From assembly GCA_030041435.1 (NCBI GenBank), contig JASHNW010000090.1, forward strand, positions 1-64,000: a stretch of 64,000 bases of DNA, given 5' to 3'. This document shows, piece by piece, positions 36,190-53,465 of the stretch; positions within the stretch are counted from its first letter, which is position 1; every line of letters starts with the position of its first letter. The notes under the pieces were generated by a model. The model saw only the letters and a list, made by a program, of their open reading frames with translations. It made no database searches and was not told the DNA's origin. Both the position numbers and the translations under genes were made by a program. The stretch is from Acidobacteriaceae bacterium. Lineage in GTDB: Bacteria > Acidobacteriota > Terriglobia > Terriglobales > Acidobacteriaceae.

Positions 36190-36987
36190 CTATTCGCCCA
36201 GCAGCAGGCGTTCGGTGGAGAGGGCGCGGCCGGTGGAGGGGTCGCATTCGATGAGAAGGGCGGCCATGCGGGGGTCACCTTTGGCGGCTTCAAATTTGGA
36301 GGGCATGCCGGTGAGGAAGCGATCGAGGACGAGCTGCTTTTCGACGCCGATGATGGAGTCGTAGGGGCCGCTCATGCCGACGTCGGTCTGATAGGCGGTG
36401 CCGCGGGTGAGGACGCGGTTGTCGGCGGTGGGGATGTGGGTATGAGTGCCGATGACCGCGGTGACCCGGCCGTCGAGATACCAGCCGAGGGCGGCCTTCT
36501 CGCTGGTGGCCTCAGCATGCATGTCGACGACGATGACTTTGGCTGAGATTTTTGCAAGCAGAGCGTCGGCGACACGGAAGGGATCGTCGCTGCTGGCCAT
36601 GAAGACGCGGCCCTGAAGATTGACCACGGCGTACTCCAGCCCGGAGGGCAGCGTGCCCTGGTACCAGCCGTAGCCGGGACTGCCGGGGGCGTAATTGGCG
36701 GGGCGAATGACACGGCGGGGGCGATCGTGGCTGTGCGCCGGCGCGGAGTTGAGATAGTCGATGATTTCTTTTTTGTCCCAGATGTGGTTGCCGGTGGTGA
36801 GGACGTGAGCGCCGAGGTCGAAGAGGTCGTCGGCGATGGCGGGCGTGAGGCCGAATCCGCCGGCGGCATTTTCGGCATTGACGATGAGGAGGTCGACCTG
36901 GCGGCCGGCGACGACGTGGCCGATGTGCTCGCGGACGATGCGGCGACCCGCGCTGCCGAAAACGTCGCCGACGAAGAGGATGCGCAA
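36190..36987 (-). CDS. YmdB-like metallophosphoesterase (TIGR00282)
   Basis: A 265-residue calcineurin-like phosphodiesterase of the YmdB family. Motifs: ILFVGDVFGSAGRR, VNAENAAGG, TTGNHIWDK, VDMHAEATSEKAA and GTHTHIPTADNRVL supply the two-metal site. Family members hydrolyse 2',3'-cyclic nucleotides and affect sporulation, biofilm or RNA turnover in Firmicutes; the role here is unknown. The start codon is TTG at 36987 with GGAG eight bases upstream. A TATAAT box lies at 37011-37016 on this strand. It heads a likely operon with map. Confidence 0.92.
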   Translation of the reverse strand: MRILFVGDVFGSAGRRIVREHIGHVVAGRQVDLLIVNAENAAGGFGLTPAIADDLFDLGAHVLTTGNHIWDKKEIIDYLNSAPAHSHDRPRRVIRPANYAPGSPGYGWYQGTLPSGLEYAVVNLQGRVFMASSDDPFRVADALLAKISAKVIVVDMHAEATSEKAALGWYLDGRVTAVIGTHTHIPTADNRVLTRGTAYQTDVGMSGPYDSIIGVEKQLVLDRFLTGMPSKFEAAKGDPRMAALLIECDPSTGRALSTERLLLGE

Positions 36988-37695: not shown

Positions 37696-39150
37696 TTAAG
37701 CTCGCGCGAGCCCGGCCAGCGGCTTGCGCGAGTCCTTCAGCCAGCGCGAGCAAAGCAACAGCGCGATGACGATGAGGGCGAGGGTGAGGCCGAGCCAGAG
37801 GCCGGAGAGTCCCCAGCGCAATCCGAAGCAGAGGAATGCGCCCAGCGGGAGGCCGAGGACCCAGTAGCCGGCGAGATTCATGAACATGGGGAAGCGGGTT
37901 TCGCCGAGGCCGCGCAGCGTGCCGGTGGAGACGCTCTGGATGCCGTCGAAGATCTGGAAGCCGGCAACGATGGCGAGGATATGCGCGCCGAGGGTAAGGA
38001 CGCGCGGGTCGTGCGTCCAGATGCCGATGATAGCGCGCGGAATGGTGAGGAGGATGACCGCCATGCAGGCCATGAATCCTGCGCCGAGGACGATGGCCAG
38101 AGTTCCGGTGCGCCGAGCGTGAGCTGGATTGCCGGCGCCGATCGCGTGTCCGACGGCCACCGCGGCTCCCTGGGAGATGCCCAGCGGGACCATGTAGGTG
38201 TAGGCCGCGCAGCAGAGGACGATTTCGTGCGTGGCGAGGGCGATGGGGCCCAGGTGCGCGGACATGACGGTGGCTGCGCCGAAGGCGGCGATTTCCAGGA
38301 TGAGCTGCGAGGCGGCAGGCAGGCCGAGGCGGAGAAGTTCGCGGAGGCGTGTCCAATCCGGCCCGGGCCAGTGGGCGAAGAGGGCATGGCCGCGATCGGA
38401 TTCGTGCGCCCAGGCGGCGTAAACGAGCACAGCGGCCATGTACACGCGGGCGGCGCAGGTAGAGAGCGCGGAGCCGCGGACGCCCATGGCAGGGAAGCCA
38501 AAGTGACCGTAGATGAGGATCCAGTTGCCGCCGAGGTTGACCAGGTTGGCGGTGATGAGGGCGAAAGCGACGGGGCGAACGCGGCCGACGCCCTGAAGAT
38601 AGCGGCGGAATCCGCCGTAGACGAGCAGGGGGAATGTGCCCCAGTTGAGGACGTTGACGTAGGCGCGGGTCAGCGAGGCGACGGTGGGATCGACGCCGTG
38701 GCCGGTGAACTGGACTTCGGCGGCGAGCATGAACAGCATGAGCAGCGGCGTGAAGGTGAGGGCGATGTACATTCCCTGGGCGAGGGAGCGGTGGCAGTCG
38801 TCGAAGCGGCGCGCGCCCCAGGACTGGGCGACGAGCGTATCGAGGCCGAGCAGCAAGCCGATGCCGAAAAGCGAGGGCGCGTAGTAAATGGCGTTGCCGA
38901 GTCCGACGGCACCGATGGCGGCAGGGCCGAGGCGGCCGACCATGACAAGATCGACGATGGTCATGGTCATCCAGCCGAGCTCGGAGAGCACAACCGGGAT
39001 AGCGAGTGTGAGCAGAGCGCGGAGCTCTTCGGCGAGCCGCGTGGGGCGGTCGTGTTGTTGATCGAAGGTGCGCACCACGGGACTCTCCGCGTCTGAAGCG
39101 GCGGCTGCGGGGAGCCGGGTTTCGCGCTCGGAGGACCTCTCGGAAGACAT
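37696..39150 (-). CDS. MATE-family efflux transporter
   Basis: A 484-residue transporter with 12 predicted membrane helices in two homologous halves. Typical MATE patterns: IPVVLSELGWMTMTIVDLVM, GLGNAIYYAPSLFGIGLLLG and, in the second half, GLPAASQLILEIAAFGAATV and GISQGAAVAVGHAIGAG. MATE proteins export cationic drugs or metabolites using sodium or proton gradients. There is no Shine-Dalgarno before the ATG, but a TACAAT box 11 bases upstream (39162-39167) suggests a very short leader. It is divergent from the tRNA-Ser gene. Confidence 0.92.
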   Translation of the reverse strand: MSSERSSERETRLPAAAASDAESPVVRTFDQQHDRPTRLAEELRALLTLAIPVVLSELGWMTMTIVDLVMVGRLGPAAIGAVGLGNAIYYAPSLFGIGLLLGLDTLVAQSWGARRFDDCHRSLAQGMYIALTFTPLLMLFMLAAEVQFTGHGVDPTVASLTRAYVNVLNWGTFPLLVYGGFRRYLQGVGRVRPVAFALITANLVNLGGNWILIYGHFGFPAMGVRGSALSTCAARVYMAAVLVYAAWAHESDRGHALFAHWPGPDWTRLRELLRLGLPAASQLILEIAAFGAATVMSAHLGPIALATHEIVLCCAAYTYMVPLGISQGAAVAVGHAIGAGNPAHARRTGTLAIVLGAGFMACMAVILLTIPRAIIGIWTHDPRVLTLGAHILAIVAGFQIFDGIQSVSTGTLRGLGETRFPMFMNLAGYWVLGLPLGAFLCFGLRWGLSGLWLGLTLALIVIALLLCSRWLKDSRKPLAGLARA

Positions 39151-39258
39151 GGGGATGGCCTATTGTAGATGGCGGAGTGGGAGAGGGAGCGCGTGGTAGA
39201 TTTGAGGTAGCGAGCAGTCGTCCTCTGGGTGGCGATTGCAGCGCTTCCGCAGGGACGC

Positions 39259-39348
39259 GGAGAGATGGCCGAGTGGCTGAAGGCGCACGCTTGGAAAGCG
39301 TGTATGCTCGAAAGGGCATCCAGGGTTCGAATCCCTGTCTCTCCGCCA
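39259..39348 (+). tRNA. tRNA-Ser (anticodon GGA)
   Basis: A 90-base class II tRNA. The acceptor GGAGAGA pairs with TCTCTCC, followed by discriminator G and encoded CCA. The anticodon loop TTGGAAA between CACGC and GCGTG gives GGA (39293-39295), reading UCC and UCU serine codons. A long variable arm (TGCTC GAAA GGGCA) and the T arm CAGGG TTCGAAT CCCTG are intact. Its last 17 bases plus the next base are repeated at 51613-51630. Confidence 0.97.
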
Positions 39349-39349
39349 T
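39332..39349 (+). repeat. Left copy of the 18-base tRNA-Ser end repeat (attL candidate)
   Basis: TCCCTGTCTCTCCGCCAT covers the 3' side of the T arm, the acceptor strand and CCA plus one base. An exact second copy lies at 51613-51630. This is the position where tyrosine integrases commonly recombine. Confidence 0.7.
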
Positions 39350-39883
39350 ATCCATCATTAACACTCTTGTTTTCAATCGCTTAGAGTGGCCAAGCCTCGG
39401 GCAATCTCACTCCAGAAGCCTTACAAAACCTTACCACTGTACACTTTTGCCCTGTTTCACTGGACATCGAGGCGAATCGATTTGATCCGCCATCGGGATG
39501 TGGTTTTCGATGACGACGGAAACGGCTCCCTGACCGCTGAAAAGCTGGCAGAGAAGCTGATTCGAGAGATGGTCAAAGGGGTCAAGTCCCGCGTTAAGTG
39601 CCAGGGTTGTTCACGCGCTCGCCGCCCCGCAACACAAGATCGCCGCGCACACAGTAGTGTTCACTGTCACGTTAGGAGGCGCACTTGTGACCGAGAACGC
39701 GAACTGTGCCTTCCTGTTCTCACCAGTGGCAGTGATCGCCAACGAGAATGTGCCCGTTGCGCTGGTTGACCGGTCATGGTTCCATCTACCTGAAGCCAGC
39801 GCCACTGCCTGGGCAGGCTCCTTTCACAGATGTCTGTCTCATTCCGCTGGCACAGAATTCGCTGAGCACGCCAAGGACGCCTG
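39350..39883. other. Region without an intact gene next to tRNA-Ser
   Basis: About 530 bases. No integrase domain is recognisable in any frame. A minus-strand stretch at 39611-39805 (TGTFSLAITATGENRKAQFA, then FSVTSAPPNVTVNTT) resembles the edge of an Ig-like repeat of a secreted protein and may be a remnant. A plus-strand stretch at 39482-39592 (DDDGNGSLTAEKLAEKLIRE) looks protein-like but has no clear start or family. The area is probably decayed DNA at the edge of an insertion. Confidence 0.45.
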
Positions 39884-41074
39884 CTACCCGTGGTGCACGG
39901 CCGAGGCGAAAGGCGCCAAGAGGGCGACGGCCACCGCCGCGACGACGGGAACGCAGAGGACTTCCACCGTGCTCCGCGCAGCCAGCCAACCGCCCAGCAT
40001 GGGGCCAGTCGTTCCCCCGATGAGCGCGACCGCCATGATGGCCCCGAATACCGTGCCAGTCTCTGATGGGAAGCGGTCGCCGGCGATGGCGAGCGTTGTG
40101 GGAAAGATCGGGGCCATACCGAGGGAGAGGATGCTGAACCCGGCGATCATCCCGGCGTATCCGTTGTGCGCGGGTGCGCTGATCGCTGCAATGCCTGAGC
40201 CGGAAACAAGAAGAGCGCAGGAGAGCAGCAGCAGTGCCCGGCCGTTCAGGCGGTGCGAGACGAATGACGCAAGGAGACGTCCGGCTCCGAGGGCGACCGT
40301 AACGGCGACCAGGGCGAGATCGGCTCGATTGCCTGACACATCAAAGATGTCAGCCGTCAGCTTGCCGGCCCACACGAAGACACAGTTTTCATTCGCCGAC
40401 TCGAAAAGCAGAAGAGTCGCAAAAATCCAGATGGCCGGATGCAGGAGGCTCCGGAGCAGCACACGCGGAGGCGTGCCGGCACGCAGCCCTGGTGGAAATC
40501 GCATTGGCAGCAGAAGCAGCAGAATGAGGGCTGGTGCGGCGGCGAGGAGACGCAGCGTCGCCGCTGAAGACAGACGGCCGTGCGCGACGGACATCAGCAG
40601 AGGAGCCGCGATGGCTCCGAGGCTGAAGGAGAATCCGAGGAGATTGAGCGAGGACGCGCGGCTGGAGGCACGCAGGACGGAGACGATGGCGTTGGCGACG
40701 GTGTTGAGAATGCCGCCGCCGAGGCCGTACGCAATCGCGGCAGCGGCGAGCGCGGGATACGTGGACAGCCAGGGCATGATGGCCAGCGCTCCGGCAACGA
40801 GAACCAGCGACACAGCAAGGATGAGCTTCGCGCCGGCCTTATCGAAGACCGGCCCAATGACGATGGTCGCGATCAACACGCCCGCCAGCGGCAGCGAACC
40901 GAGGCTTCCCGCATGGGCCGCACTCACGCGCAGCGCAGGCAGCAGCGAACCCATCAGCAGCAGCACGATTCCGAACACGAACATGCAGGCGTTCACGAGC
41001 AGAATCTGAGCCCCGAGCGCGGCGGGGTCGGAAGCCGCGGCGGTCAGAGCATCCGCGGAATTTCCCGTTTTCAT
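39884..41074 (-). CDS. MFS transporter, probably for a sugar
   Basis: A 396-residue major facilitator with 12 predicted helices. The first half has VNACMFVFGIVLLLMGSLLP and IVIGPVFDKAGAKLILAVSL (a variant of the loop 2-3 motif); a central loop separates the halves near residue 200. The pattern is closest to FucP/sugar:proton symporters, and its place at the end of an isomerase-glycosidase-kinase operon supports import of the released sugar. The ATG overlaps the ROK kinase stop (ATGA at 41071-41074). It is the last gene of the operon. Confidence 0.85.
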   Translation of the reverse strand: MKTGNSADALTAAASDPAALGAQILLVNACMFVFGIVLLLMGSLLPALRVSAAHAGSLGSLPLAGVLIATIVIGPVFDKAGAKLILAVSLVLVAGALAIMPWLSTYPALAAAAIAYGLGGGILNTVANAIVSVLRASSRASSLNLLGFSFSLGAIAAPLLMSVAHGRLSSAATLRLLAAAPALILLLLLPMRFPPGLRAGTPPRVLLRSLLHPAIWIFATLLLFESANENCVFVWAGKLTADIFDVSGNRADLALVAVTVALGAGRLLASFVSHRLNGRALLLLSCALLVSGSGIAAISAPAHNGYAGMIAGFSILSLGMAPIFPTTLAIAGDRFPSETGTVFGAIMAVALIGGTTGPMLGGWLAARSTVEVLCVPVVAAVAVALLAPFASAVHHG

Positions 41075-41979
41075 TGCCTGACCTGGTCGAAACAGATTTT
41101 GGCCAGACCAAGCAGCGGGGCGCGGCTGCCCAGGCTGCTGCGCACCACGCGCACCTGGCCGCCCGCCAGCGGCTGCGCCCACTTTCGCAGAGTTCGGCGG
41201 GCCGGCGCGAGGAGGAGATTGCCTGCAGCCGCCATACCCCCTCCAACGACGATGACCTGCGGATTGAGGATGTCGACCACCGCAGCGAGCGCGATGCCAA
41301 GCGCATCGCCTGCGTCGGCCAGAATGCGGCGGGCCCGGGCATCGCCACCACGAGCCAGTGCAACAATGCGCTCCGGCGTAACGGAAGCGCCGAAGACTCG
41401 GTTGCCGGCGCGACCGATGCCGGGACCGGTGGCGTGGTATTCGAGGCAGCCCATCGCTTTGTAGACCGCGAGGAACTTTTCGCGTACGGGCAGCCATCCG
41501 AGGCATCCGGCCAGTTCGCCGGAGCCCCGCAACAGACGTCTGCCGCTGATGATCCCCGCGCCTATCCCGGTCCCGACAGCGACAAAGACGACATCGCTGC
41601 AATCCTGCGCGCGACCCTGCCAGGTTTCGCCGAGCACGCAGGCGTTCCGGTCGCTCTCGAGCAGGACCGGCAGGCCGAGCCGCTTGTGCAGCATCCGCGC
41701 CAGCGGCATACGCGTCCACTTGCGAAGATTGGGAGCCCACACGGTGCCATCGGGACGAGCCAGGCCGGGTACCGCGACACCCACAGCGCAGGCTCCTTCG
41801 CGCGGAAGCTGCGAGAGGAGCTGTGCAATCGCATCGACAATTTGCGCGCCTCCTGCGGCGGGTGTGGGGACCTGCGATCGATGCGAGATCTCACCTGAGG
41901 GAGTGACGCGGGCAACGGCGATCTTCGTACCGCCAAGATCGGCGACAAGGACAAAGCGACTGCCTGATCTGCGCCTCAC
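41071..41979 (-). CDS. ROK-family sugar kinase, zinc motif absent
   Basis: A 302-residue ROK kinase. The phosphate loop is ADLGGTKIAVARV (Asp14), the catalytic Asp lies in LLESDRNACVLGE, and GTGIGAGIISG and VIVVGGGMAAAGNL are typical. The usual GH-x(9-11)-CxCGxxGC zinc site is altered: the His region reads AGCLGW and the CxCG part reads KFLAVYKAM, with only GCLEYHATG kept. It probably phosphorylates the monosaccharide made by the upstream glycosidase. The start is GTG at 41979, overlapping the glycosidase stop (GTGA). Confidence 0.9.
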   Translation of the reverse strand: MRRRSGSRFVLVADLGGTKIAVARVTPSGEISHRSQVPTPAAGGAQIVDAIAQLLSQLPREGACAVGVAVPGLARPDGTVWAPNLRKWTRMPLARMLHKRLGLPVLLESDRNACVLGETWQGRAQDCSDVVFVAVGTGIGAGIISGRRLLRGSGELAGCLGWLPVREKFLAVYKAMGCLEYHATGPGIGRAGNRVFGASVTPERIVALARGGDARARRILADAGDALGIALAAVVDILNPQVIVVGGGMAAAGNLLLAPARRTLRKWAQPLAGGQVRVVRSSLGSRAPLLGLAKICFDQVRQ

Positions 41980-44291
41980 CTGCGATCCAGACTTACCACC
42001 CAGATGCCGTGCGGGGGAAGGGTCCTGCGGAGAATCGTGGCTCCATTCTGCTGATCGAATGCGACCTCCGAGCCGACGATCACATCGTGAGCTGCGCTGG
42101 GCGTCCAGGGCAGGCTGATCGAAATAGAAGCGTCCGCGGGCCGATCGGAGTGGCTGAACACGAAAACGAGCTGACCATCTGCCGCAATCAATCGCCGCAC
42201 TTCGACGTCGTCCGTGCCGGATCCTGAGACTCGAACCCGCGGCGCGACACCGGCGGACGCGGCCAGTGCCAGAAGCAGCGCACGCGTGCCGGCGTCGTGT
42301 GTTCTCTGATACGAGAGCCCGAGAAACGAACCAACGAGGATGGCGGTCCCGCTGCCGAAGCGATGGCAGACGATGGCGGCCGCGCCTGAAGGAAACGTCG
42401 CCAGCGTGCGCGCGTCCGGCGCCGGCTCCAGATCCTCTTCGAACGCCGCACCGGGCAAGACCTGGCCCGCGGAGAGACCGGAAAAGGCGGCAGAAGCCTC
42501 GATCGCGATTTCCGGCTTCTCTTCGGGACGAATCAGCGATTCACGCGCGCCAAACACCTGGTCCAAACCGAATCCCGGAATGACGGGACTCGCGTGCCCG
42601 CGTTCGTCGTTCCATGCCAACCTCGCTTCGGCCACGACGGTACCTCCGCCCTGAATGTACTGGCGGATCAGGCCACCAGCGCTCTGCGAAAGCATAACCG
42701 GATACGGAAGGAAAACGATGCGGTATTGGCTGAGACGCAGCAAATCCGACGACGACAGGCTGACGAAATCGACCGGAATCAGCTTTTCAAGAAAGGCACG
42801 GTACAGGCCCAGCAGCGAGTCGCGTTCGGCATTGCCCAGCGTCGAGGGCGACGGTTGACGGCCGCCCACCATGTAGGAAAGCCGGTCGTAAACGATGGCG
42901 ACGCGCGCCGCGGCCGGTTCAGACGCGTCGATTCTGGCGGCGTTGGCAGCGATAAGAGCCGCAGTTTTGCCCGCCGCGCGAGCGCGGTCCGTGAGTGTTC
43001 CGTCCAGATGGATCAGTCCATAGCCGTTCGACTCGAACCCCGAACTCATCGGATACCAGGCGTAGGTCGCCGTTTCGCGAGCGCCATGCGAGATCGCCTG
43101 CCACATCCAGAATTCTTCGTCCTGCGGCGTAACCGGATCGGCGATGCGCATACCGGTCGCGCCCTGGCCAGCCTGCAGCTCACCAATCCAGAATCCCTTA
43201 CCGAAGGCGTGCCCTGCGGAACGCGTGAAATCGAGCCCGGCAGTCAGCATCCACCACGGCCACGGCCGCGAAGACTCGGAGTGTTTGGGATAAATCGAGG
43301 TGCCGTAGAAATCGGCTGTTGCGGACATCTTCCAGTCGTCCGGCTCTCCATAGCCGTCGGTCGGCTGCGTGAAAAGCCCCGGGGCATCGGCGTGACTGGT
43401 GATCGGATGACCGCGGTCAGCGCTGCGAATGGCGTCGACGCGGGTCTTCAGGTCGCCGGCCAGCTTATCGTCGATGAAGGCGCGCCAGTCAATGTAATCG
43501 GTGTAGGAGAGGATCGTCGAGAAGCGAGGCGCCTGCACCTGATCCCAGCTTGTGAACTGCCGATACCAGGCAGCGTTCAGCGCGTCGAGGGTTCCGTATT
43601 TCGCCTGCAGCCACTCACGAAAGCGCGCCTGGGTGGCCTGGCAAAAGCAAAACTCCGGATCCCTGATCCAGGAAAAATCGGCCCAGTTGATCACATGCGG
43701 CTCGCTCCACACATCCCAGCCGTAAAGAGCGGGAAAGCGATTGGCGTCGCGCGAGAGAGCCCCGAGGAAGCTGGTGATTTCGCGTCGAACTGCGGCGTAA
43801 TCGATGCAATATCCGGGAGCCGATTGCGAGTCGATCACGATGCCGCTGCGGTCGACGAAGCGGCTGTCAGGAAACTGCCGTCCGATCCAGTCGGGAGCCG
43901 AATCGAGATAGACCTGAATGATGACTTTGAGCCCACGGTCGCCGGCGAGCTTCAGCAGCAGGTCCAGGTTACTGAAGTTGTAGACACCACGCCGGGGCTC
44001 AGCGGTCGACCAATCGACCCAGGTCTTGACGGTGTTGAATCCCACTCCTTTGATCGAGTCGAGATCGGCTCCCCAGGCTGCGGAGCTGCCGGCGTCGATG
44101 CGGCTCATCATCGGAGCGCGTGCCGTTCCACCTCCATACCAGACGGCGAGGGGGAAAAATGCGGCCGGTGCAGTTCCCGCGTTAGCCGAACCAGCCGGCG
44201 TTGCCTGGCCGAGCACGGCCGCTATTGCGAACGCAGCGGCGATGCGCCCGGCACGCAGGCGAACGTCGCAACCAGCCCCGCGACCCATCAT
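41976..44291 (-). CDS. Exported GH42-like glycoside hydrolase (beta-galactosidase type)
   Basis: A 771-residue enzyme with a signal peptide (about 1-36). The TIM barrel begins WGADLDSIKGVGFNTVKTWV; the acid/base is Glu197 in GWDVWSEPHV and the nucleophile is Glu371 in FWIGELQAGQG, both in the GH42 arrangement. A trimerisation-like domain (about 465-680: RVAIVYDRLSYMVGG, YRIVFLPYPVMLSQSAGGLI) and a small C-terminal beta domain follow. The asparagine usually before the acid/base is Ser here. It likely releases a terminal sugar outside the cytoplasm. Its ATG overlaps the isomerase stop (ATGA). Confidence 0.87.
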   Translation of the reverse strand: MMGRGAGCDVRLRAGRIAAAFAIAAVLGQATPAGSANAGTAPAAFFPLAVWYGGGTARAPMMSRIDAGSSAAWGADLDSIKGVGFNTVKTWVDWSTAEPRRGVYNFSNLDLLLKLAGDRGLKVIIQVYLDSAPDWIGRQFPDSRFVDRSGIVIDSQSAPGYCIDYAAVRREITSFLGALSRDANRFPALYGWDVWSEPHVINWADFSWIRDPEFCFCQATQARFREWLQAKYGTLDALNAAWYRQFTSWDQVQAPRFSTILSYTDYIDWRAFIDDKLAGDLKTRVDAIRSADRGHPITSHADAPGLFTQPTDGYGEPDDWKMSATADFYGTSIYPKHSESSRPWPWWMLTAGLDFTRSAGHAFGKGFWIGELQAGQGATGMRIADPVTPQDEEFWMWQAISHGARETATYAWYPMSSGFESNGYGLIHLDGTLTDRARAAGKTAALIAANAARIDASEPAAARVAIVYDRLSYMVGGRQPSPSTLGNAERDSLLGLYRAFLEKLIPVDFVSLSSSDLLRLSQYRIVFLPYPVMLSQSAGGLIRQYIQGGGTVVAEARLAWNDERGHASPVIPGFGLDQVFGARESLIRPEEKPEIAIEASAAFSGLSAGQVLPGAAFEEDLEPAPDARTLATFPSGAAAIVCHRFGSGTAILVGSFLGLSYQRTHDAGTRALLLALAASAGVAPRVRVSGSGTDDVEVRRLIAADGQLVFVFSHSDRPADASISISLPWTPSAAHDVIVGSEVAFDQQNGATILRRTLPPHGIWVVSLDRR

Positions 44292-45040
44292 TGTCTGCCC
44301 TGAATGAACTTCTCGTAAGCCTCAAAGACGCGCTGATTGTGGTCGGGAGGCAGGCCGACGTTGGGCGAGACAAAGGTCGGCGGTGGAACGCCGGCTTTCG
44401 CGAGGAGCGCTCCCGTTTCCGCGATGAGAGACATCGCGATCGATACGGCAGCGATGGTGGAACCCGCGGCAAACTTCTCCGCCAGCCCGTCGATCGATAT
44501 CAATGCATCTTCGGGCGGCACGCAGTTATCGATGGCAATGTTGGAAGCATCCGCGAGCGTCTTGCCGCTGGAATGCTTTGCCTCACGCTGCTTCCGGTTC
44601 TGGTGCGAGGAAACCGAGACTACGGTCAGGCCGCGCTTCCCCGCCTCGATGGCCATTTCCACCGGAGCGGCGTTGAGTCCGCCATGTGAAAAAACCAGCA
44701 TGCAATCGCCGGCGCGGAGATTGTAGCTCTGCAGAACGATTTCTACGTAGCCCTCGCGCTGCTCCAGCCACAGCAGTTCGCGCGCGCCGCCGGGGCCAAC
44801 CACGTTGAACCACATCAGACGGGGATCGTAAATAGGCTGGAAACCAACAAAGCTGCCGTAACGCGGAAAGATATCGAGGACAGGAATGACGGAATGACCG
44901 CTGCCGAATAAAAAGACGCGTCCCTGCGACTGGATCGAATGCGCGAAGGCCTGCGCAGCCTGCGCGATCTTTTCGCCCTGCGTTTCGCGAATCTCGCGCA
45001 GGATCGCTCCCACGCGTTCCAGATATTGCTCATAAACCAT
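44288..45040 (-). CDS. SIS-domain sugar phosphate-binding protein (UPF0309-like isomerase)
   Basis: A 250-residue SIS protein. Motifs: RVFLFGSGHSVIPVLDIFPR, DCMLVFSHGGLNAAPVEMAI and LTVVSVSSHQNRKQRE form the phosphosugar pocket; HSSGKTLADASNIAIDNCVP is typical of the UPF0309/sugar isomerase group. It may isomerise or bind a (amino)sugar phosphate made by the ROK kinase. The ATG at 45040 follows AGGAG by about ten bases; longer upstream readings lack one. It heads the four-gene operon 45040-39884, in which every junction is a four-base overlap. Confidence 0.85.
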   Translation of the reverse strand: MVYEQYLERVGAILREIRETQGEKIAQAAQAFAHSIQSQGRVFLFGSGHSVIPVLDIFPRYGSFVGFQPIYDPRLMWFNVVGPGGARELLWLEQREGYVEIVLQSYNLRAGDCMLVFSHGGLNAAPVEMAIEAGKRGLTVVSVSSHQNRKQREAKHSSGKTLADASNIAIDNCVPPEDALISIDGLAEKFAAGSTIAAVSIAMSLIAETGALLAKAGVPPPTFVSPNVGLPPDHNQRVFEAYEKFIQGRQ

Positions 45041-45257
45041 TTGCCCTGATCTCCTGTAAGTCGGTAAATTTTGTTCTGGCAACGGCCTCGTTCTGCACGT
45101 GGGCTGGAGCATTTTCACTTTCGGCCCAGGGAAGAAACCAGCATCTGCGTGGCCATTCCGTCAAAGAAGGGCCACACAGAACGGAGCTGACCATCCCATA
45201 GTAAAGGTGAAAATTCTCTAAAAGACCCAGGCGATGGGCTGCGACCAGGAGAACCAC

Positions 45258-46052
45258 ATGGAACATACGCGAAGAGACTTTCTGGTTCTGGCCGGGGCGA
45301 GCGCAACGGCCATGGGCGCGCAGGTGGTGGGGCAGCCAGGCATCGCACGCGAACAGGGCGACGCGCCCGCGCGAGTGATGGCGGTTGCTGCGCATCCCGG
45401 CGATGGATTTTTCAGCATGGGAGCGCCGGTGGCGCTGGCGGCCGCGCAGCAGGGCGCAGGGTGTTTCCTGAGCCTCTCCCTCGGCAGCCGCGGATCGGCG
45501 ACCATTCCCGCGCCGCGCTACGGCGACATGCAGCGCGACGCTTCGCAGCAGGCCGCGCAGAAGCTGCGTTCGCAGGCGATCTTTCTGGACTACGAAGACG
45601 GCGAGATTCCGGTGAACGACGAAATTAAGTTCGCGGTTTGCGACAAAATTCGCGAGTTTCAGCCCTCGATCGTCCTCACGCACTGGAAGGGGAGCTGGCA
45701 TAAGGACCATCAGGCCTGCCATGCGATCGTGGAGGACGCGATTTTCTACGCGGGCTTGCCGGCGATCGCACGCTCGCGGCCGGCCCATTCCGTGGGCAAG
45801 ACCTGGTACGCCTGGAACTGGGAGGACGCCGACGCATTTCGCGCCGACACGTATCTCGACATTACGCCGGTCTACGAGCCGTGGATGGAGGCGTGCGCGC
45901 TGTTTCCTATGTGGCGCGGAGAAAACGGCTTCCGTTACAACGACTATTATCAGAGCCATGCCGTCGCAACCGGATGTCTTTGCGGAGCGAAGTACGCGGT
46001 GGCGCTGATGTCTCCGCCGGAACAACTGGTGCGGCATCTCCAGGCGCTGTAA
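45258..46052 (+). CDS. Tat-exported PIG-L-like deacetylase with an altered active site
   Basis: A 264-residue protein with a twin-arginine signal (TRRDFLVLAGASATAMGA). The PIG-L/LmbE fold is clear: VMAVAAHPGDGFFSMGAPVA and LTHWKGSWHKDHQACHAIVE. Zinc ligands His46, Asp49 and His151 (HKDH) are kept, but the first Asp of the canonical AHPDD, the general base in MshB-type enzymes, is Gly48. Activity on an N-acetylated sugar is possible only if another residue substitutes. AGGAG precedes the ATG. It is divergent from the sugar operon and convergent with a TonB-dependent receptor. Confidence 0.85.
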   Translation: MEHTRRDFLVLAGASATAMGAQVVGQPGIAREQGDAPARVMAVAAHPGDGFFSMGAPVALAAAQQGAGCFLSLSLGSRGSATIPAPRYGDMQRDASQQAAQKLRSQAIFLDYEDGEIPVNDEIKFAVCDKIREFQPSIVLTHWKGSWHKDHQACHAIVEDAIFYAGLPAIARSRPAHSVGKTWYAWNWEDADAFRADTYLDITPVYEPWMEACALFPMWRGENGFRYNDYYQSHAVATGCLCGAKYAVALMSPPEQLVRHLQAL

Positions 46053-46056
46053 GAAC

Positions 46057-46097
46057 GCGCCGGATCGCAGAGCGAAGGCGAACACGCGATCCGGCGC
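46057..46097. terminator. Twelve-base-pair hairpin between convergent genes
   Basis: GCGCCGGATCGC and GCGATCCGGCGC form a perfect stem around a 17-base loop, five bases after the deacetylase stop and before the converging receptor gene. No T run follows, so it may be a structural or Rho-assisted terminator, or a REP-like element. Confidence 0.5.
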
Positions 46098-46263
46098 TGC
46101 CAGGCAGGCGAGAAGATTGCGCCGAAGACGGGGTAACCGGTTCCGGATGAAGATCCCGCCTGAGCAATTGCAGGGCATTCTGGTCGTCCGTAACAACCTG
46201 CACGCGGAGCGACTGCGCCGCGGCACACAACGAAGCACACCGTGGCGCGAAGTCGTGCCGAGA

Positions 46264-49200
46264 CTAGAAGCGATAGTGCATCGACACCTGGAGGATGCGC
46301 TGGGTGGAGTTTGTGCCGATTATTTTGCCCAGGAAGCCGACATCATAGTCGGGCAGCCAGCTATCGGGCGGCGCATAGCTGGCGATGTTCCCCACGTTGA
46401 AGGCTTCGCCGCGCAGCTCCAGCGTCTGTTCCCTGGCAACCGTGAACACCTTGAATGCACCAACATCCACCTTGCGGTACCCCGGCGCGCGCTCGGAGCC
46501 GTTTTGGGCGTTGCCGAAGTAGTTGTACGATTCGTTGCCGTAGGCACAGGCCCCGGAGTAAGCCGGGCTCCCGTTGGGGAAGTAGCTTTGCTGGCTGGGG
46601 TTGCCGTTCGCATCAAATGCCAGGCACGGTACGGCGGAAGGATCGGTACCGAACCAGTTCTGGATTGTGCGATGGACGATGTGTAGCGGCCGGAAGTAGG
46701 TCACGTGGTTCTCGTAGTCCCCGACGTTGTAGTCCTGAGGGCCATACATGGTGATCGGGAACCCGGAATAGAGGACGGCATCGCCGGAGAGCTGCCATCC
46801 GCCAAAGGCTTCGTCCATCGCGCGGTTCCAGTTGCTGCCGAACCGCCTGCCGCGCCCGAAGGGCATGTGGAAGATGCCATAGGCGGTCAGAGAGTTGCGC
46901 GTGTCGTATCCTGCCGGCCCGTAATCCCCCCTGGGATCGTAGATGTTCTGGAAGAAAGAGCTGAACTCGGCGACGCTGGCAACGCCATAGAAACCTGCAT
47001 TGTCGGTCATCGCGCGGGCCCATGTGTAGTTCACGTTGTAGTCCATGCCGCTGGAGGCCTTATGGCGCAGCGTGGCCTGCATGGCGTTGTAATTGGAGAA
47101 GCCCTCCGACTGGGTTTCAGCGAGATACCCGAAGTTGCCCACGAGCCCACAGAAAGGAGCGGGTGGCGCAATGGTGCCGCTACAGTCGTTGGAGGCAAGC
47201 AGACCGGTAGCGGGGGTGGGCCACTGGTTGGCTTGTTCCGGCACAACCAGATGCTGGCCAAGCTGTCCCACGTAGGTCACCTGCGCCGAAGTAGCGCCGT
47301 TCACCGCATACTGCCACGCGAGATTGAACTGCTGAACCAGCGCCGGGCGCAGGTTTCCGGACCAGGCGTTGAACTGACCGTAGTTGAAGGACTGAGAGCC
47401 GGATGAGCTGTTGAACCCGTTTTCAGCTTTAACCGGCGCCGCTCCCGCCGTGGTAAGGGTTGGGGCGACCGGAGCGTAGGCGAAATTCGACAGGAACGGC
47501 GGATTCTGGGTCAGGCGCAGGTTGGCGCCCGTGCCTTCCAGCCAGTCCGTAATGCCGTAGCCGCCGCGGAAGACAAGCCGGGAGCTGACCTGCAGTGCAA
47601 AGCCGACGCGAGGCATGAAGTTGGTCCAGACCGGGTTGTAGAGCGCGCGGCTGGCGCCGTTTTTGCCGGCGTACTCCAGAATCTGAGCAGCCGTCGCCGT
47701 TGGATTGGGGTGAACAAGATCGCTGTTGATGATGTTCGCTTCCTTGTTATTTACCTCGTAGAGCGGCTGGTCGTAGCCCCAGCGCAGGCCCAGGTTCAGG
47801 GTCAGGTTGTGGCGGACTCTCCAGTCGTCCTGCGCGAAGACGGCATTGCGGTACTGCCGATAGCCCACATCCCCGGCGACGCCGCCGACCGCGTCGCCGG
47901 CGGATTCGTCCAGCACAAAGTCCGCAAATCCATAGCCGTACTGGGGCACGGAGGCAGATGGGTTCGCCGTGTACGTGCCGTTGTAACTGAAACTCCCCAA
48001 TGCTCCGGCATTGCCGGGATAAAAGCTGTTCTGCTGATAGCGCACGATTTGCCCGCCGAAGCGGAGGTTGTGCGTACCCTTCAACCAGGTGAACAGATCG
48101 GAATAGAAGAAGTTATTTTCGTGAAACTTGGTCGAAATCGCCGTGGTTCCCACGTTGCTCTCGGAGCTGGAGAAACTCATCAGCGAGAAGCCCTGGAACG
48201 CCTGGTTGGAAAAGGGAATTCCAATCTTGCTGTCGCCGCTGGTGCCGAAGAACCCAGTGGAGTCGAAAGGCTCGCCCTGCAGCCAGATGGCGCGGGAGAT
48301 GCCGGCTCGGAACTCGTTCTGCATGGATGGCGAGAAGGTGTGTATCTCATTCAGCGCCAGGTTCAGGAAGGGATAATCGTTGGCCGTGGGGAAGGTAATC
48401 GCCAGGGTGGACTTGACGGGCAGGTCGTAGGCGTCGCCGTCGCTGAAGCGCCCCATCAGCGTGTCGTGCGGGCTGATCGTGTAGTCGACGCGCACGTCGC
48501 CCTGGTTGTTGTGCGTCTGGCCCTTGAACGGTCCCCAGTAGTTGCCCACGTCGACATAGCCGCCAACGGGAGCGTGATTCGGCAGCGGATAGTACTCGGG
48601 ATGCGCAAAAAGGAATTTGGCAACCGGATTGTTGACCGGGATCTGGTTGCACGTCATGGGGCTGGTGGAGCAGTTCCCGTAAGCAGTGGCGCTGTCATAT
48701 GCGCCTCCGTTGTTTGTGTTGTAAAGCTGAATTGGGGACTGGTTGTAGTAGCTGCTCAATGCGATCTCGTGAAAATCTCCGTTGCGCATGTCCGGAGTTG
48801 CCACTGTGAGCTGCCCAAGCCCCCCGCTGTGATAGCGGAAACCTTCGTAATCTGCGAAAAGGAACAGCTTGTCCCGCTTGATGGGACCGCCGACCGTCCC
48901 GCCGAACTGCTCCTGCGTGAATGGCGTGATCGGCAGTCCGTAGTAGTTGTTGTACCAGGAGTTGGCACTGGCCAGATTATTGTCCTGGTAGTACATGTAT
49001 ACGCTTCCGTGATAGTGGTTGGTGCCTGATTTGGTTACAACGAGTATCTCGCCGCCGTTCACGTTGCCATATTCGGCGTCGGCGTTGCCGGTGATCACCT
49101 TCTCCTGGGCGATGCTGTCAGGAGCAGGGTTATACGCGGCCAGGTTGTTGATGGTTTCGTTCATCTCGATGCCGTCCAGCACATAGTTGTTCCCCTGCTG

Positions 49201-49797
49201 GCGGTTACCGTTGAAGGAGGGGATCCCAGCGGAGCCGGTGTCACGCTCGTTGCCGAAGCCGGCCGCCATGGAATCGAGCGAGGGGTTGACCGCGCCGGGC
49301 ACGAACAATGTATCGGTCTGGAAGTTCAAGCCATTGTTGGGGACGTTTTCCAGAGCCTCGGTGTCGAAAGTCGCGCCGGTTGTGATGTTCTGCGTTTGCA
49401 GCAGAGGCGAAGTTTCCGAAGTGACAGTAATCGTCGTGCTGGCGCTGCCGACGTGCAGGATTGCGTCAACCTTGGCGATCTGATCGATCTGAAGCGGAAA
49501 CGCGTTGATCTGGACGGTTCTGAAGCCGGAAGCCCGGACCGTGACAGTGTATGTGCCGATGGGCAGAAACTGGATGTTGTACTCGCCGTCCTTATCGGTG
49601 AGTGTCCTCGTGTTCACGCCGGTCGAGACATTGGTTGCGGTGACACTGGCGCCGGCAATGACCGCACCGCTGGGATCGGTGACGGTGCCGCGGATGCTCC
49701 CGGTGATGGTCTGGGCCAGCGTGCCGGTGACGGCGAAGGCGAGAACTGCAAACGCCATGGCCGCAGCCCTGATCAGGTGCGTCGAAATCCTGTGCAT
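46264..49797 (-). CDS. Oar-type TonB-dependent receptor with carboxypeptidase-regulatory-like domain
   Basis: A 1,177-residue outer-membrane receptor. After a signal peptide (to about ALAQ) comes a CarboxypepD_reg-like domain (SIRGTVTDPSGAVIAGASVT, DKDGEYNIQFLPIGTYTVTV), a plug (FNGNRQQGNNYVLDGIEMNE, GNVNGGEILVVTKSGTNHYH) and a long barrel of the Oar family ending in HYRF. No classic TonB box was identified. These receptors are typical of acidobacteria and presumably import glycans or other large substrates. GGAGG precedes the ATG at 49797. It is divergent from a GntR regulator with a palindromic site between them. Confidence 0.93.
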   Translation of the reverse strand: MHRISTHLIRAAAMAFAVLAFAVTGTLAQTITGSIRGTVTDPSGAVIAGASVTATNVSTGVNTRTLTDKDGEYNIQFLPIGTYTVTVRASGFRTVQINAFPLQIDQIAKVDAILHVGSASTTITVTSETSPLLQTQNITTGATFDTEALENVPNNGLNFQTDTLFVPGAVNPSLDSMAAGFGNERDTGSAGIPSFNGNRQQGNNYVLDGIEMNETINNLAAYNPAPDSIAQEKVITGNADAEYGNVNGGEILVVTKSGTNHYHGSVYMYYQDNNLASANSWYNNYYGLPITPFTQEQFGGTVGGPIKRDKLFLFADYEGFRYHSGGLGQLTVATPDMRNGDFHEIALSSYYNQSPIQLYNTNNGGAYDSATAYGNCSTSPMTCNQIPVNNPVAKFLFAHPEYYPLPNHAPVGGYVDVGNYWGPFKGQTHNNQGDVRVDYTISPHDTLMGRFSDGDAYDLPVKSTLAITFPTANDYPFLNLALNEIHTFSPSMQNEFRAGISRAIWLQGEPFDSTGFFGTSGDSKIGIPFSNQAFQGFSLMSFSSSESNVGTTAISTKFHENNFFYSDLFTWLKGTHNLRFGGQIVRYQQNSFYPGNAGALGSFSYNGTYTANPSASVPQYGYGFADFVLDESAGDAVGGVAGDVGYRQYRNAVFAQDDWRVRHNLTLNLGLRWGYDQPLYEVNNKEANIINSDLVHPNPTATAAQILEYAGKNGASRALYNPVWTNFMPRVGFALQVSSRLVFRGGYGITDWLEGTGANLRLTQNPPFLSNFAYAPVAPTLTTAGAAPVKAENGFNSSSGSQSFNYGQFNAWSGNLRPALVQQFNLAWQYAVNGATSAQVTYVGQLGQHLVVPEQANQWPTPATGLLASNDCSGTIAPPAPFCGLVGNFGYLAETQSEGFSNYNAMQATLRHKASSGMDYNVNYTWARAMTDNAGFYGVASVAEFSSFFQNIYDPRGDYGPAGYDTRNSLTAYGIFHMPFGRGRRFGSNWNRAMDEAFGGWQLSGDAVLYSGFPITMYGPQDYNVGDYENHVTYFRPLHIVHRTIQNWFGTDPSAVPCLAFDANGNPSQQSYFPNGSPAYSGACAYGNESYNYFGNAQNGSERAPGYRKVDVGAFKVFTVAREQTLELRGEAFNVGNIASYAPPDSWLPDYDVGFLGKIIGTNSTQRILQVSMHYRF

Positions 49798-50008
49798 TTT
49801 TCCTGCCTCCAAAAGCGTCGTTCGCACTGCAGCCCGGAACGCTGCTCATTCCCCTGATGCAGACGTTCCGTGATCCACGGAATGCAGGAGAGACACCGGA
49901 GAAAACCTGCTAAGGCAGCGGGTCGCTTCGCATCCCGGCCATTCCGAAAGTTCCGGATGGAGTTGAATTGAAGCACGAGACGATTTTCTTTGTCAATCCG
50001 ATAATCCA

Positions 50009-50022
50009 GTCTTATAGAAGAC
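50009..50022. promoter_or_regulatory. Inverted repeat between the receptor and GntR genes, candidate operator
   Basis: GTCTTATAGAAGAC has perfect arms GTCTT/AAGAC around ATAG; a further AAAGAC follows at 50025-50030. GntR/HutC-type operators are short palindromes of this size, and the site lies in the shared divergent promoter region. Confidence 0.5.
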
Positions 50023-50081
50023 ATAAAGACCGAATGTCGCAAGTCTGGCACTTGACGCGGCGCTGGTTTTGGATTTATGTC

Positions 50082-50870
50082 ATGGATTCAATGAACGCAC
50101 AAGCCTTGCCGCAGGTGACGCCGCTGGACCGAGGGAACGGCATCCCTCTTTACCACCAGATCCAGCGCCAGCTCATGGAACAGATACGTTCCGGCGCCCT
50201 CCGGCAGAGCGACCCGGTGCCGCCGGTGCAGGAGATCGCCGCACGCTACGGCGTGAGCCTGATGACCGCCCGCCAGGCGGTCCGCTCGCTTTGCGATCTG
50301 GGCCTGACGTACAGCAGGCAGGGCAAGGGCACCTTCGTCTCAAACACCAAGCTCGAGAAGAATTTTCGCCAGGTGATGTCGTTCACCGAAGAGATGAAAA
50401 CCCGCGGTACGACACCCAAATCCAAAGTGCTGTCGTTTCGCATTCAGGTCGCGCCGGCCGAGGTGCGAAAAGCCCTGAACCTGAGCGCCGGCGAGAAGGT
50501 ATTCCGGCTGCATCGGGTACGCTACGGCGACAACGTGCCGCTGGGGATCGAGTGCAGTTGCCTCCCGGTCTGGCTCTGCCCCGCCTTGCTGAAGGATTAC
50601 GACACAGCTTCGTCGCTGTACCGCACGCTGGAGCTGCACGGAGTTTTTCTGATGACGGCCAGCGAGGTGGTGGAAGTGGGCCGCGCGAACGCGGATGACG
50701 CGAAGCTCCTGCGCATCGCGCCCAGGAGCCCGGTGTTCCTCTTCACGCGCATCTCCTTTCTCGAGGACGGCAAACCGGTGGAGTTCGTTAAATCGACCTA
50801 TCGGGGGGACCGCTACAAGATCGTCAACCGGCTCACACGCGTGCGGTCTGATGGGGCAACTACCCCATGA
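50082..50870 (+). CDS. GntR-family regulator, HutC/UTRA subfamily
   Basis: A 262-residue one-component regulator. The N-terminal winged helix starts GNGIPLYHQIQRQLMEQIRS and continues PPVQEIAARYGVSLMTARQA, VRSLCDLGLTYSRQGKGTFV. Residues about 95-255 are a UTRA ligand domain (VFRLHRVRYGDNVPLGIECS, FLFTRISFLEDGKPVEFVKS, YRGDRYK). UTRA proteins bind sugars, amino sugar phosphates or amino acids. The start is uncertain: ATGs at 50034, 50082 and 50091 all lack a good ribosome site. It is divergent from the Oar-type receptor, which it probably controls. Confidence 0.9.
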   Translation: MDSMNAQALPQVTPLDRGNGIPLYHQIQRQLMEQIRSGALRQSDPVPPVQEIAARYGVSLMTARQAVRSLCDLGLTYSRQGKGTFVSNTKLEKNFRQVMSFTEEMKTRGTTPKSKVLSFRIQVAPAEVRKALNLSAGEKVFRLHRVRYGDNVPLGIECSCLPVWLCPALLKDYDTASSLYRTLELHGVFLMTASEVVEVGRANADDAKLLRIAPRSPVFLFTRISFLEDGKPVEFVKSTYRGDRYKIVNRLTRVRSDGATTP

Positions 50871-51043
50871 GGAGCTGGATTCCGCTCGGGAAAATCGTGT
50901 GAAGAGGGCCGACTCGCGACTGCGAAGCTATTCATCCGGATCTGGCAGGCGAGCCGGTTGCTCTTCAGAAAAATTGCGGTCTCTGAACGGTCCGTAAGGC
51001 TCTGCGGCCAAAAAGGGGTCGTGTGGCCGCCAATACGGAGGCT

Positions 51044-51562
51044 GCTCCCACCGGCGCATGCGGGTGCCGACGGCTTCCTGCTGGACGTACTGCAGGACAT
51101 GCCGCTCAACGGCCGGGACTTTACGCAGATGCTGGCGGTGTTGCCGGGCTATGCGGGGTACTCCGGCGGGGGCGGCGGTTCCGTGAACGGCACGCGGCGC
51201 GACATGGTGAACTGGCAGATCGAGGGGGCCGACAACAACGATCTGTGGTGGAACGCGCCGGCCGTGAATCAGGGAGGCGTCTCCGGGACGCGGGGATCAC
51301 ACTTCCGATTGACGCGATCGAGCAGTTCTCGGCGGTAACGGAGGCGAGCCCGGAAACCGGGCGCAACCAGGGCGCCACGGTCGATCCGGTGATCAAGTCG
51401 AGCACCAACGCCTTCGGCAGCGCCTACTACTACAACCGCAACGAGGCGCTGGCCGCGCAATCGCAGCTGCTGGCGACGAAGCCGGAGCTGCACAACCAGC
51501 AGTTTGGCTTCTCGACGGGCGGACCGATCTGGCGGGATCACGCCTTCTTCTTTGTGAGTTAA
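51044..51562 (+). pseudogene. Fragment of an Oar-type TonB-dependent receptor, frameshifted and truncated
   Basis: Only part of the plug is left: DVLQDMPLNGRDFTQMLAVL, NGTRRDMVNWQIEGADNNDL, then in another frame GITLPIDAIEQFSAVTEASP, AFGSAYYYNRNEALAAQSQL and GFSTGGPIWRDHAFFF before a stop. The frame changes at the G run 51292-51295, where one extra G would restore it. The signal peptide, N-terminal domain and the whole barrel are missing. It lies just left of the right-hand tRNA repeat. Confidence 0.85.
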
Positions 51563-51932
51563 TTGGCCGAGGCTCTTCTCGAAGGCCGCCAGGTCGCGGT
51601 CCATGCCGCCACTCCCTGTCTCTCCGCCATCACTTCTCGATATCTTCGCGTCGCCCATGCAAGACAGACAAGAAATTTACAGATATGCCAGGTCTGGATT
51701 TTCAGGATTTCCGAAAAATGCGCCCAACAGGCCTTCGTTGGCCCTTTTCATTTGACAGCGGAGGAGTCTCCGATCAAATCGCTGGTGGCTGCAAGAGTGC
51801 GCAAGGGGACTGATATAACCCCCGGTTCGACCATTCGGCTCGCTGGCCCTCCGCCGAGCCCGAATCGTACGGATTTTTCGGTGACGCCGGCGCGTCGCGT
51901 TGTGCAGAGTGAAGTCGCCACTGTCTGCGCTT
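51563..51932. other. Region around the right repeat with no supported gene
   Basis: About 370 bases between the receptor fragment and the convergent metallohydrolase gene. It contains the 18-base copy of the tRNA-Ser end at 51613-51630. Open readings exist but have no recognisable domain, start site or codon pattern that I trust. No integrase remnant is seen. Confidence 0.45.
51613..51630 (+). repeat. Right copy of the 18-base tRNA-Ser end repeat (attR candidate)
   Basis: TCCCTGTCTCTCCGCCAT matches 39332-39349 base for base, in the same orientation. The bases on both sides differ from the tRNA, and upstream there is no T-arm 5' strand, so this is not a second tRNA gene. Confidence 0.7.
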
Positions 51933-53465
51933 TCATTTCCAGTTAACGTAAACCGGATTGCTCAACAGGAGCAGCCGCCCTTCGCTGTCGCGAACCTCGG
52001 CAAGGATCCAGTGGCGCCCTCCGTCGGCGCGCCACTGAAAGTGCAGAGACTGTTCGGCTGCGGTGATTGCCTGCGGCTGCGCGTCCGGCAGTTCCCTGCC
52101 ATCCGCGAAGAAGTGCACAGAGTCTCCCTGGCATTCGACTGTGTGCACGTCGATAGCAACAACTTCGTCGCGGCTCGTCTGGAGCATTCCTCCCATGGCT
52201 GCGGTTGCGGCGCCGGCCTGTGCGTCGATGTTGACGAGGCGGTCGCGCGAGCCCGTCAAATCGATGAACACACGGCCCGAGCGGATGCCGTCGAGGATGG
52301 CGGGCGTGGACAGTTCGGTGGCGTACACGACGGTGGTCGGCCATCCGATCGATCCCGGCTGATCGAGCGGGATCATGGGGCGATGGTTGTCGCTGCCACC
52401 GATGGCGGTGAGGCGGTAACCCAGATCGAGCTGGTGTTCCCAGAAGGGAATCCCGGAGAATGCGGGGTTCTGGCTCCCGCCGTTCACGGCTTCCACAGCA
52501 GTCAGCAGATGCATGTCAACCGGATGGGCCGGCGTCCAGCCGCAGCCCATACAGATTTCACCGCTGGGCGCAGCAGGGTGATTGATCGACACCAGCGCTC
52601 CGAGCTTCTGTGCGTTGCGCAGCAACACATTCATGTTGGGCACGGCGGAGCTGCCGAGGCGAAAATCCAGATAATCCGTGGTTCCCAGAAAGTTGAGATG
52701 ACCGTGAAACGTCGTGATTTCGCGGCCAGGAATCAAAAGAACCTTGTCGAAATACGGTTGCAGCTCGCGGATCGCATCGTACTGCGACGTGGCATTGTGG
52801 TCAGTGATGGCGATGAAATCGAGACCCCGGCGGGCAGCCGCATCGACGGTGAAGAAAACCGGGCAGGGAACCAGGTTGCCGGTCTGGCTGGGGCACTGCC
52901 CGTCGCTGTTCGCCGTGTGCATATGGAGATCGCCGCGGTACCAACCGGGCCCGCTGCGGAGCGGCGCACGCAAGCCGGGGGGCTGGTCGGCGACCACGCC
53001 GCTTCGGGTGAAGAAAACCTGAGCCGTGTAATGCGATGTGACCGCCGGCCGAATGTTGGGGACACCGATGAGGACTTTCCATTCTCCGGACGGAATCAGC
53101 CCGGGGAGGCAGGACGGGGTGGCATCGGAAATACCGATGGTCAACAGCGACTTGTTGCCGCCGCTCCAGCAGCGCAGCTCGATGGGATCGAGCACGCCGA
53201 GATCGAGCGCGGTGTGCTGGTCTCTCCCGGTGTACGCAAAGGTGAGCGTAACTCTGCGAACGCCGGCAGGAACGTGGAACGGAACCTCAATGTAGGTATG
53301 ATTCTGCGAGCCGCGGACCTCGCCTTGAAGCACGAGGTCCGGGCTGGATGCGTGCGGCGCAGACGACGGGCTGCGAGCCTGACGCCCTGCGGCAGCCGAC
53401 AACTCCAAGCCAAAGAAGAGGAGGAAAACTGGGGCTGCGAGCCAGCAGGTTCTGAGCCTAACCAC
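51933..53465 (-). CDS. CehA/McbA-like PHP-domain metallohydrolase, exported
   Basis: A 510-residue protein with a signal peptide (VRLRTCWLAAPVFLLFFGLE). An N-terminal beta domain is followed from about residue 175 by a PHP fold: WYRGDLHMHTANSDGQCPSQ, LDFIAITDHNATSQYD, VLLIPGREITTFHGHLNFLG, LVSINHPAAPS and AIGGSDNHRPM supply the metal-binding His/Asp set. CehA/McbA relatives hydrolyse carbamate and phosphodiester-type substrates; the natural substrate here is unknown. The start is GTG at 53465 with GGAGGAGG upstream. It lies 49 bases after the receptor gene on the same strand, so the two are probably co-transcribed. Confidence 0.87.
   Translation of the reverse strand: MVRLRTCWLAAPVFLLFFGLELSAAAGRQARSPSSAPHASSPDLVLQGEVRGSQNHTYIEVPFHVPAGVRRVTLTFAYTGRDQHTALDLGVLDPIELRCWSGGNKSLLTIGISDATPSCLPGLIPSGEWKVLIGVPNIRPAVTSHYTAQVFFTRSGVVADQPPGLRAPLRSGPGWYRGDLHMHTANSDGQCPSQTGNLVPCPVFFTVDAAARRGLDFIAITDHNATSQYDAIRELQPYFDKVLLIPGREITTFHGHLNFLGTTDYLDFRLGSSAVPNMNVLLRNAQKLGALVSINHPAAPSGEICMGCGWTPAHPVDMHLLTAVEAVNGGSQNPAFSGIPFWEHQLDLGYRLTAIGGSDNHRPMIPLDQPGSIGWPTTVVYATELSTPAILDGIRSGRVFIDLTGSRDRLVNIDAQAGAATAAMGGMLQTSRDEVVAIDVHTVECQGDSVHFFADGRELPDAQPQAITAAEQSLHFQWRADGGRHWILAEVRDSEGRLLLLSNPVYVNWK

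Follow-up and report, generated by a model that had tools for sequence, protein, structure and literature searches.

The window analysed here is a stretch of 64,000 nucleotides from a soil bacterium of the Acidobacteriaceae (assembly GCA_030041435.1, contig JASHNW010000090.1, positions 1 to 64,000 of the forward strand). The genome, hereafter G000, comprises 5.77 Mb in 134 contigs, and the contig that holds the window is 134 kb long. The window has one tRNA gene, tRNA-Ser(GGA), and a scan against Rfam recognised nothing besides it. The end of this gene recurs 12.3 kb downstream, and the segment between the two copies had been proposed to be an integrated island. We consider an eroded tRNA-associated island without an integrase to be the best single reading of this segment, a view that we hold with moderate confidence. 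The following features delimit it:

39259..39348, + strand: intact tRNA-Ser(GGA) gene at the left end of the segment (ARAGORN, Rfam tRNA)
39332..39349, + strand: first copy of an 18-mer, made up of the last 17 bases of the tRNA and one more base (exact sequence match)
51613..51630, + strand: second copy of the 18-mer, a displaced tRNA tail at the right end of the segment (exact match)

The 18-mer, TCCCTGTCTCTCCGCCAT, starts with the final base of the T-loop and continues through the 3′ strands of T-stem and acceptor stem, the discriminator base and CCA to a single base past the gene. The original prediction had it reach from the T-arm to CCA; 17 of its bases belong to the tRNA, and the eighteenth is not part of it. 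Both copies are exact and in the same orientation, as had been claimed, and they are the only two exact copies genome-wide. No third site in the window matches at up to 3 mismatches (a shuffled window gave a mean of 0.08 such matches). We therefore rejected the idea that the 18-mer is a dispersed repeat. Three further sites in the genome, each with 2 mismatches, lie on contigs C65, C88 and C41; the first two fall within other tRNA-Ser genes and the third adjoins an integrase gene. Outside the 18 bases, the two copies have no common sequence.

An 18-nt repeat is not rare as such, since exact direct repeats of this length or longer number 9 on the 134-kb contig; what sets this one apart is its derivation from a tRNA end. 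In favour of chance recurrence, the string is a simple, C/T-rich one, and many windows were looked at in the first-stage scan. An origin by chance is nevertheless very improbable, in agreement with the original prediction, because under a first-order Markov model about 9e-7 exact copies are expected on the forward strand across the 95 kb 3′ of the tRNA. The second copy is a genuine displaced tRNA fragment.

An integrase-type scar at tRNA-Ser(GGA) is supported by genome comparison. An insertion of the tyrosine-integrase type would have occurred at the 3′ end of the gene, leaving the two copies of the 18-mer as its scar. It would have rebuilt the tRNA and displaced its original last bases by 12.3 kb. 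The integrase gene would have been lost later, so that the segment would no longer move by itself. What now lies inside would be eroded cargo, namely genes for the use of beta-galactosides and amino sugars, with decayed DNA at both ends. We infer that the repeat is the work of an integrase and that today's contents came in by the same insertion.

To look for comparable tails, we scanned 12 genomes of the genus (G000 included; G-numbers denote related Acidobacteriaceae genomes) for sequences within 3 edits of the tRNA-Ser(GGA) 3′ end. The downstream stretches ranged from 1.4 kb (G009) to 159 kb (G003), and a miss in a short stretch means little. Six downstream tails in the same orientation were found, one in G000, one in G011 and four in G018. 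None appeared downstream in the opposite orientation (0.51 Mb) or upstream on either strand (0.40 Mb), which again argues against chance.

In G011 (contig C42), a tail with a 2-nt deletion lies at +3111 from the end of tRNA-Ser(GGA). Between tRNA and tail lie a GNAT gene and a Gp49/HTH_37 pair that resembles a toxin-antitoxin system.

The four tails of G018 (contig C34) stand in tandem within about 0.65 kb of the tRNA-Ser(GGA) gene at 148571-148660 and are set in repeat units with palindromic spacers. This weighs against an insertion in our window, as it indicates that tails can multiply locally. The tail at 51613 might likewise have been copied without an integrase, by local duplication or some other recombination. 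We regard this as unlikely: the G018 copies are close together, in tandem and joined by a common spacer, whereas the copy in the window is single, lies 12.3 kb away and has only 18 bases in common with the tRNA end.

Another case comes from G000 itself. On C88 (10746-14512), 20 exact tail bases end 3.7 kb 3′ of a tRNA-Ser(TGA) gene, and the interval contains one repeat-rich open reading frame (ORF) of 1003 amino acids. About 55 bases past this tail begins DNA with collinear counterparts in G006 (from +7.1 kb) and in G005 (from +8.4 kb). It codes for a protein of 613 amino acids and for a second one, which we take to be adenine-phosphoribosyltransferase-like. As in the window, a single 3′ tail is displaced in the same orientation on a contig without a listed integrase match. 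The cases differ in length (3.7 versus 12.3 kb), in content (a repeat-rich ORF versus a sugar operon) and in the common DNA that C88 has right past the tail. Several results count against C88 as an insertion. No tail was found at the matching junctions of G005 and G006; the G000 DNA upstream of tRNA-Ser(TGA) matched none of 7 other genomes; and of the remaining five genomes compared, G008 and G010, with about 9 kb downstream, gave no such match, while three were covered for less than 2 kb downstream.

We examined seven tail-like sites. Three have an adjoining integrase gene (G011 C339, G008 C60 and G000 C41), which speaks for an integrase-made scar in the window, and the other four (G005 C46, G011 C5, G002 C347 and G004 C81) gave no match to three integrase queries. 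The G002 site looks like a tRNA broken by Ns. The G004 site, a 20/22 match with no tRNA or integrase match in the surrounding 16 kb, may be due to chance, and to that extent lends some weight to chance in the window as well. In G011 C339 (213-1472 of stretch L178), a tyrosine integrase gene ends a few bases before a tail of the tRNA-Ser type. The integrase of G008 C60 is 74% identical to it and similarly placed.

It is also conceivable that tRNA-Ser genes of this genus carry small cassettes without an integrase (12.3 and 3.7 kb in G000 and 3.1 kb in G011) that an integrase coded elsewhere would move in trans. A short sequence with CCTTAC repeats would then serve as an arm site; it stands beside tRNA-Ser(GGA) in G000 and G011 and in part in G004. 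We consider this scheme quite improbable.

Between the two copies of the 18-mer, we recognised the following features:

39350..39883, no strand: no recognised gene; G+C 0.552 against 0.63 around it (sequence scans)
39884..41740, − strand: ORF of an MFS transporter (PF07690)
41071..41979, − strand: ROK family kinase (PF00480, E 3.3e-52)
41976..44291, − strand: GH42 beta-galactosidase (PF02449, PF08532)
44288..45118, − strand: SIS-domain sugar isomerase (PF13580, NF002805)
45234..46052, + strand: deacetylase of the PIG-L/LmbE type with a possible Tat signal (PF02585)
46264..49827, − strand: TonB-type outer-membrane receptor (PF25183, PF13620)
49968..50870, + strand: GntR/UTRA regulator (PF00392, PF07702)
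51093..51555, + strand: part of a receptor gene, truncated on both sides and with a frameshift (78% DNA identity to an intact receptor gene on C109)
51556..51612, no strand: 57 bases that separate the receptor fragment from the second copy of the 18-mer (sequence comparison)

The sugar operon, the receptor and the GntR gene agree with the first description of the segment, to which a ROK kinase has to be added. The deacetylase proved to be the plus-strand gene at 45234-46052; the long minus-strand ORF at 45030-46238 has no Pfam match. A broken receptor is present as described, with homology confined to 51093-51555. The true start of the MFS ORF is probably near 41000, because homology begins near residue 246. 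Judging from the protein families, the cluster likely serves to import and degrade a beta-galactoside containing an amino sugar. Pfam (main genes) and PHROGs (six small ORFs at the segment ends) named no phage structural or conjugation genes, with some small ORFs left unscanned. The 541 bp 3′ of the tRNA matched only the own genome and, weakly, 58 bp elsewhere among 150 family genomes. A comparison with plasmids returned a single 52-bp match, inside the tRNA.

As the original prediction had stated, the segment contains no recognised tyrosine integrase (serine recombinases and transposases were not searched as families). PF00589 matches 13 times in the genome: 12 matches are listed, all of them away from this contig, and a weak thirteenth is unlisted. 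With three integrases from beside tRNA-Ser genes or tails as tblastn queries (from C41, C65 and G011 C339; two more queries, not in the integrase frame, were set aside), there was no match inside the segment, and the best one on the contig had an E value of 0.001 at 65561-65710. None of the six small end ORFs had a PHROG match better than E 0.02. A decayed integrase, which the original prediction had proposed to look for at the segment ends, was not found.

The segment is flanked by the following genes:

36190..36987, − strand: YmdB-like phosphoesterase, left flank (84-86% identical and in the same place in G002, G005, G008 and G011)
37696..39150, − strand: MatE transporter, left flank, adjoining tRNA-Ser(GGA) throughout the genus (locus comparison)
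51933..53465, − strand: CehA/McbA family metallohydrolase, right flank, outside the repeats (NF038032)
53515..57228, − strand: second TonB-type receptor, right flank (82% identical to the receptor beside the CehA gene on G004 C119)

On the left, the neighbourhood is conserved. Among close MatE loci (68-80% identity), tRNA-Ser(GGA) adjoins in 10 of 11; at the remaining locus the contig stops before this position. Comparing 1.3 kb per side in 8 genus genomes, we found the 5′ side of tRNA-Ser(GGA) to be common to all 28 pairs and the 3′ side to one (G004-G011), a contrast that favours an integrase-type scar. In a control set for the same tRNA, 15 of 15 pairs had the upstream side in common versus 0 of 15 for the downstream side (1.3 kb each). 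The contrast was also clear for tRNA-Ser(GCT), with 17 of 36 pairs upstream and 1 of 36 downstream (1.3 kb each). It was not clear for tRNA-Ser(TGA) (2/10 and 1/10) or tRNA-Ser(CGA) (2/15 and 1/21, one row being a wrap-around artefact). None of the relatives examined keeps the genes of our segment at this tRNA.

Several observations weigh against a single inserted island. Synteny across the genus is low (blocks downstream of the tRNA in G008 lie upstream of it in G009 and G011), so that variable content behind a tRNA is weak evidence and no proof of islands on its own. The right flank, too, is accessory, because the CehA/McbA gene occurs in 2 of the 12 genus genomes, G000 included, and in G004 (73% identical) stands beside a related receptor. 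The DNA of the right flank at 51613-51932 matched none of 40 relatives (only itself in 41 genomes), and no empty site was seen among the relatives compared, none of them of the same species. We also found no backbone common to relatives directly beyond the second copy, and in congeners followed up to 159 kb 3′ of the tRNA the right flank of the segment was not found. A relic of an integrase was not found by any of three approaches (PF00589, tblastn and PHROGs). The G+C content of the segment (0.619) resembles that upstream (0.628) and to the right (0.611), and its tetranucleotide usage is no more unusual than that of 83 of the 122 windows of the contig; foreign composition was thus not seen by either measure. 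Finally, a 23-base motif beside the tRNA has relatives in the genus:

39426..39448, + strand: 23-base motif, also beside tRNA-Ser(GGA) in G011 and G004 (by alignment)

Counted from the end of the tRNA, its offset is +78 (G000), +54 (G011) and +45 (G004). The motif may be inherited flank, contrary to an insertion at the exact tRNA end, or it may be an arm of a common element. It occurs at one site each in 3 of the 12 genus genomes and at no other place, so a dispersed mobile sequence is unsupported. Of 300 family genomes, two (G004 and G011) match a small G004 ORF that touches the motif, in both at tRNA-Ser(GGA). The MatE tree favours neither view of the motif: it gives no clear answer on a clade of G000, G004 and G011 and places G004 with G009, whose genome yielded no copy of the motif.

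Much of this could be explained if the scar of an older element is genuine and the 12.3 kb were assembled later at a site prone to breakage, through ordinary rearrangement and the acquisition of genes; the repeats would then bound no single unit. The accessory right flank without backbone, the ordinary composition, the doubly truncated receptor fragment near the tail, the motif common to two congeners and the low synteny all fit such a history. We see it as the main alternative, though a less probable one than the eroded island. It requires that the tail survived while all its surroundings changed, and on C88 the tail of tRNA-Ser(TGA) still coincides with a junction to common DNA. The claim of an integrated island is supported for the tRNA-tail scar, with comparable tails in G011 and on C88, but not for the 12.3 kb as one unit.

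Related sugar clusters bear on the same question. GH42 is patchy in the family, which favours the island reading: with a threshold of E 1e-150, it was found in 22 of 300 genomes, representing 13 of 79 genera, G000 included. The nearest relatives of the enzyme belong to other genera (G097, 71% over residues 22-572; G015, 66%), and those of congeners are less similar (G009, 62%; G003, 59%). In G003 (C54), genes for PIG-L, GntR, SIS, GH42, a ROK-like ORF (by sequence reading, unscanned) and MFS stand in one place, the same set as in the window. The window differs by an added receptor gene, a different position of PIG-L and GntR in the order, and the adjoining tRNA gene. SIS, GH42 and MFS occur together in G088, G179, G231 and G252, the last two also with GntR and PIG-L; in G015, G246, G210, G129 and G097, GH42 comes without SIS or MFS in the stretch compared. 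The existence of related clusters elsewhere, in G003 and G009 without any tRNA gene in the stretches scanned, favours assembly after the scar was made.

Eroded tRNA islands without an integrase are a known kind of thing. According to the parts of the Islander description used here (PMC4383910), islands of that catalogue have an intact tRNA gene, a 3′ fragment in the same orientation, a length of 2-200 kb and an integrase ORF. Our segment resembles these tDNA islands in its intact tRNA and in a downstream fragment of the same orientation that reaches the 3′ end of the gene, and its 12.3 kb falls inside their range. The fragment should also lie outside a coding domain; the ORF at 51563-51946 over the second copy has no Pfam match (a minus-strand ORF over it, at 51269-51658, was scanned against PHROGs only). 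Unlike those islands as described there, the segment lacks the required integrase ORF, and no common backbone beyond the fragment was found. It thus looks like a relic of the Islander-type class in appearance and spacing while failing the integrase feature. Judged by titles and the beginnings of abstracts, none of the papers listed by the literature searches is on tRNA islands in Acidobacteria.

The locus offers a concrete case of how a sugar-use cluster can end up downstream of a tRNA gene in Acidobacteriaceae. Within one genus, there are repeated instances of displaced tRNA tails for which no integrase could be recognised, and catalogues that require an integrase, such as Islander, would miss such scars, although the effect on knowledge is modest.

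As a minor observation, GC skew drops at the tRNA (39000-39750), from about 0.2 on its upstream side to about 0 directly after it, and stays low past 51630.

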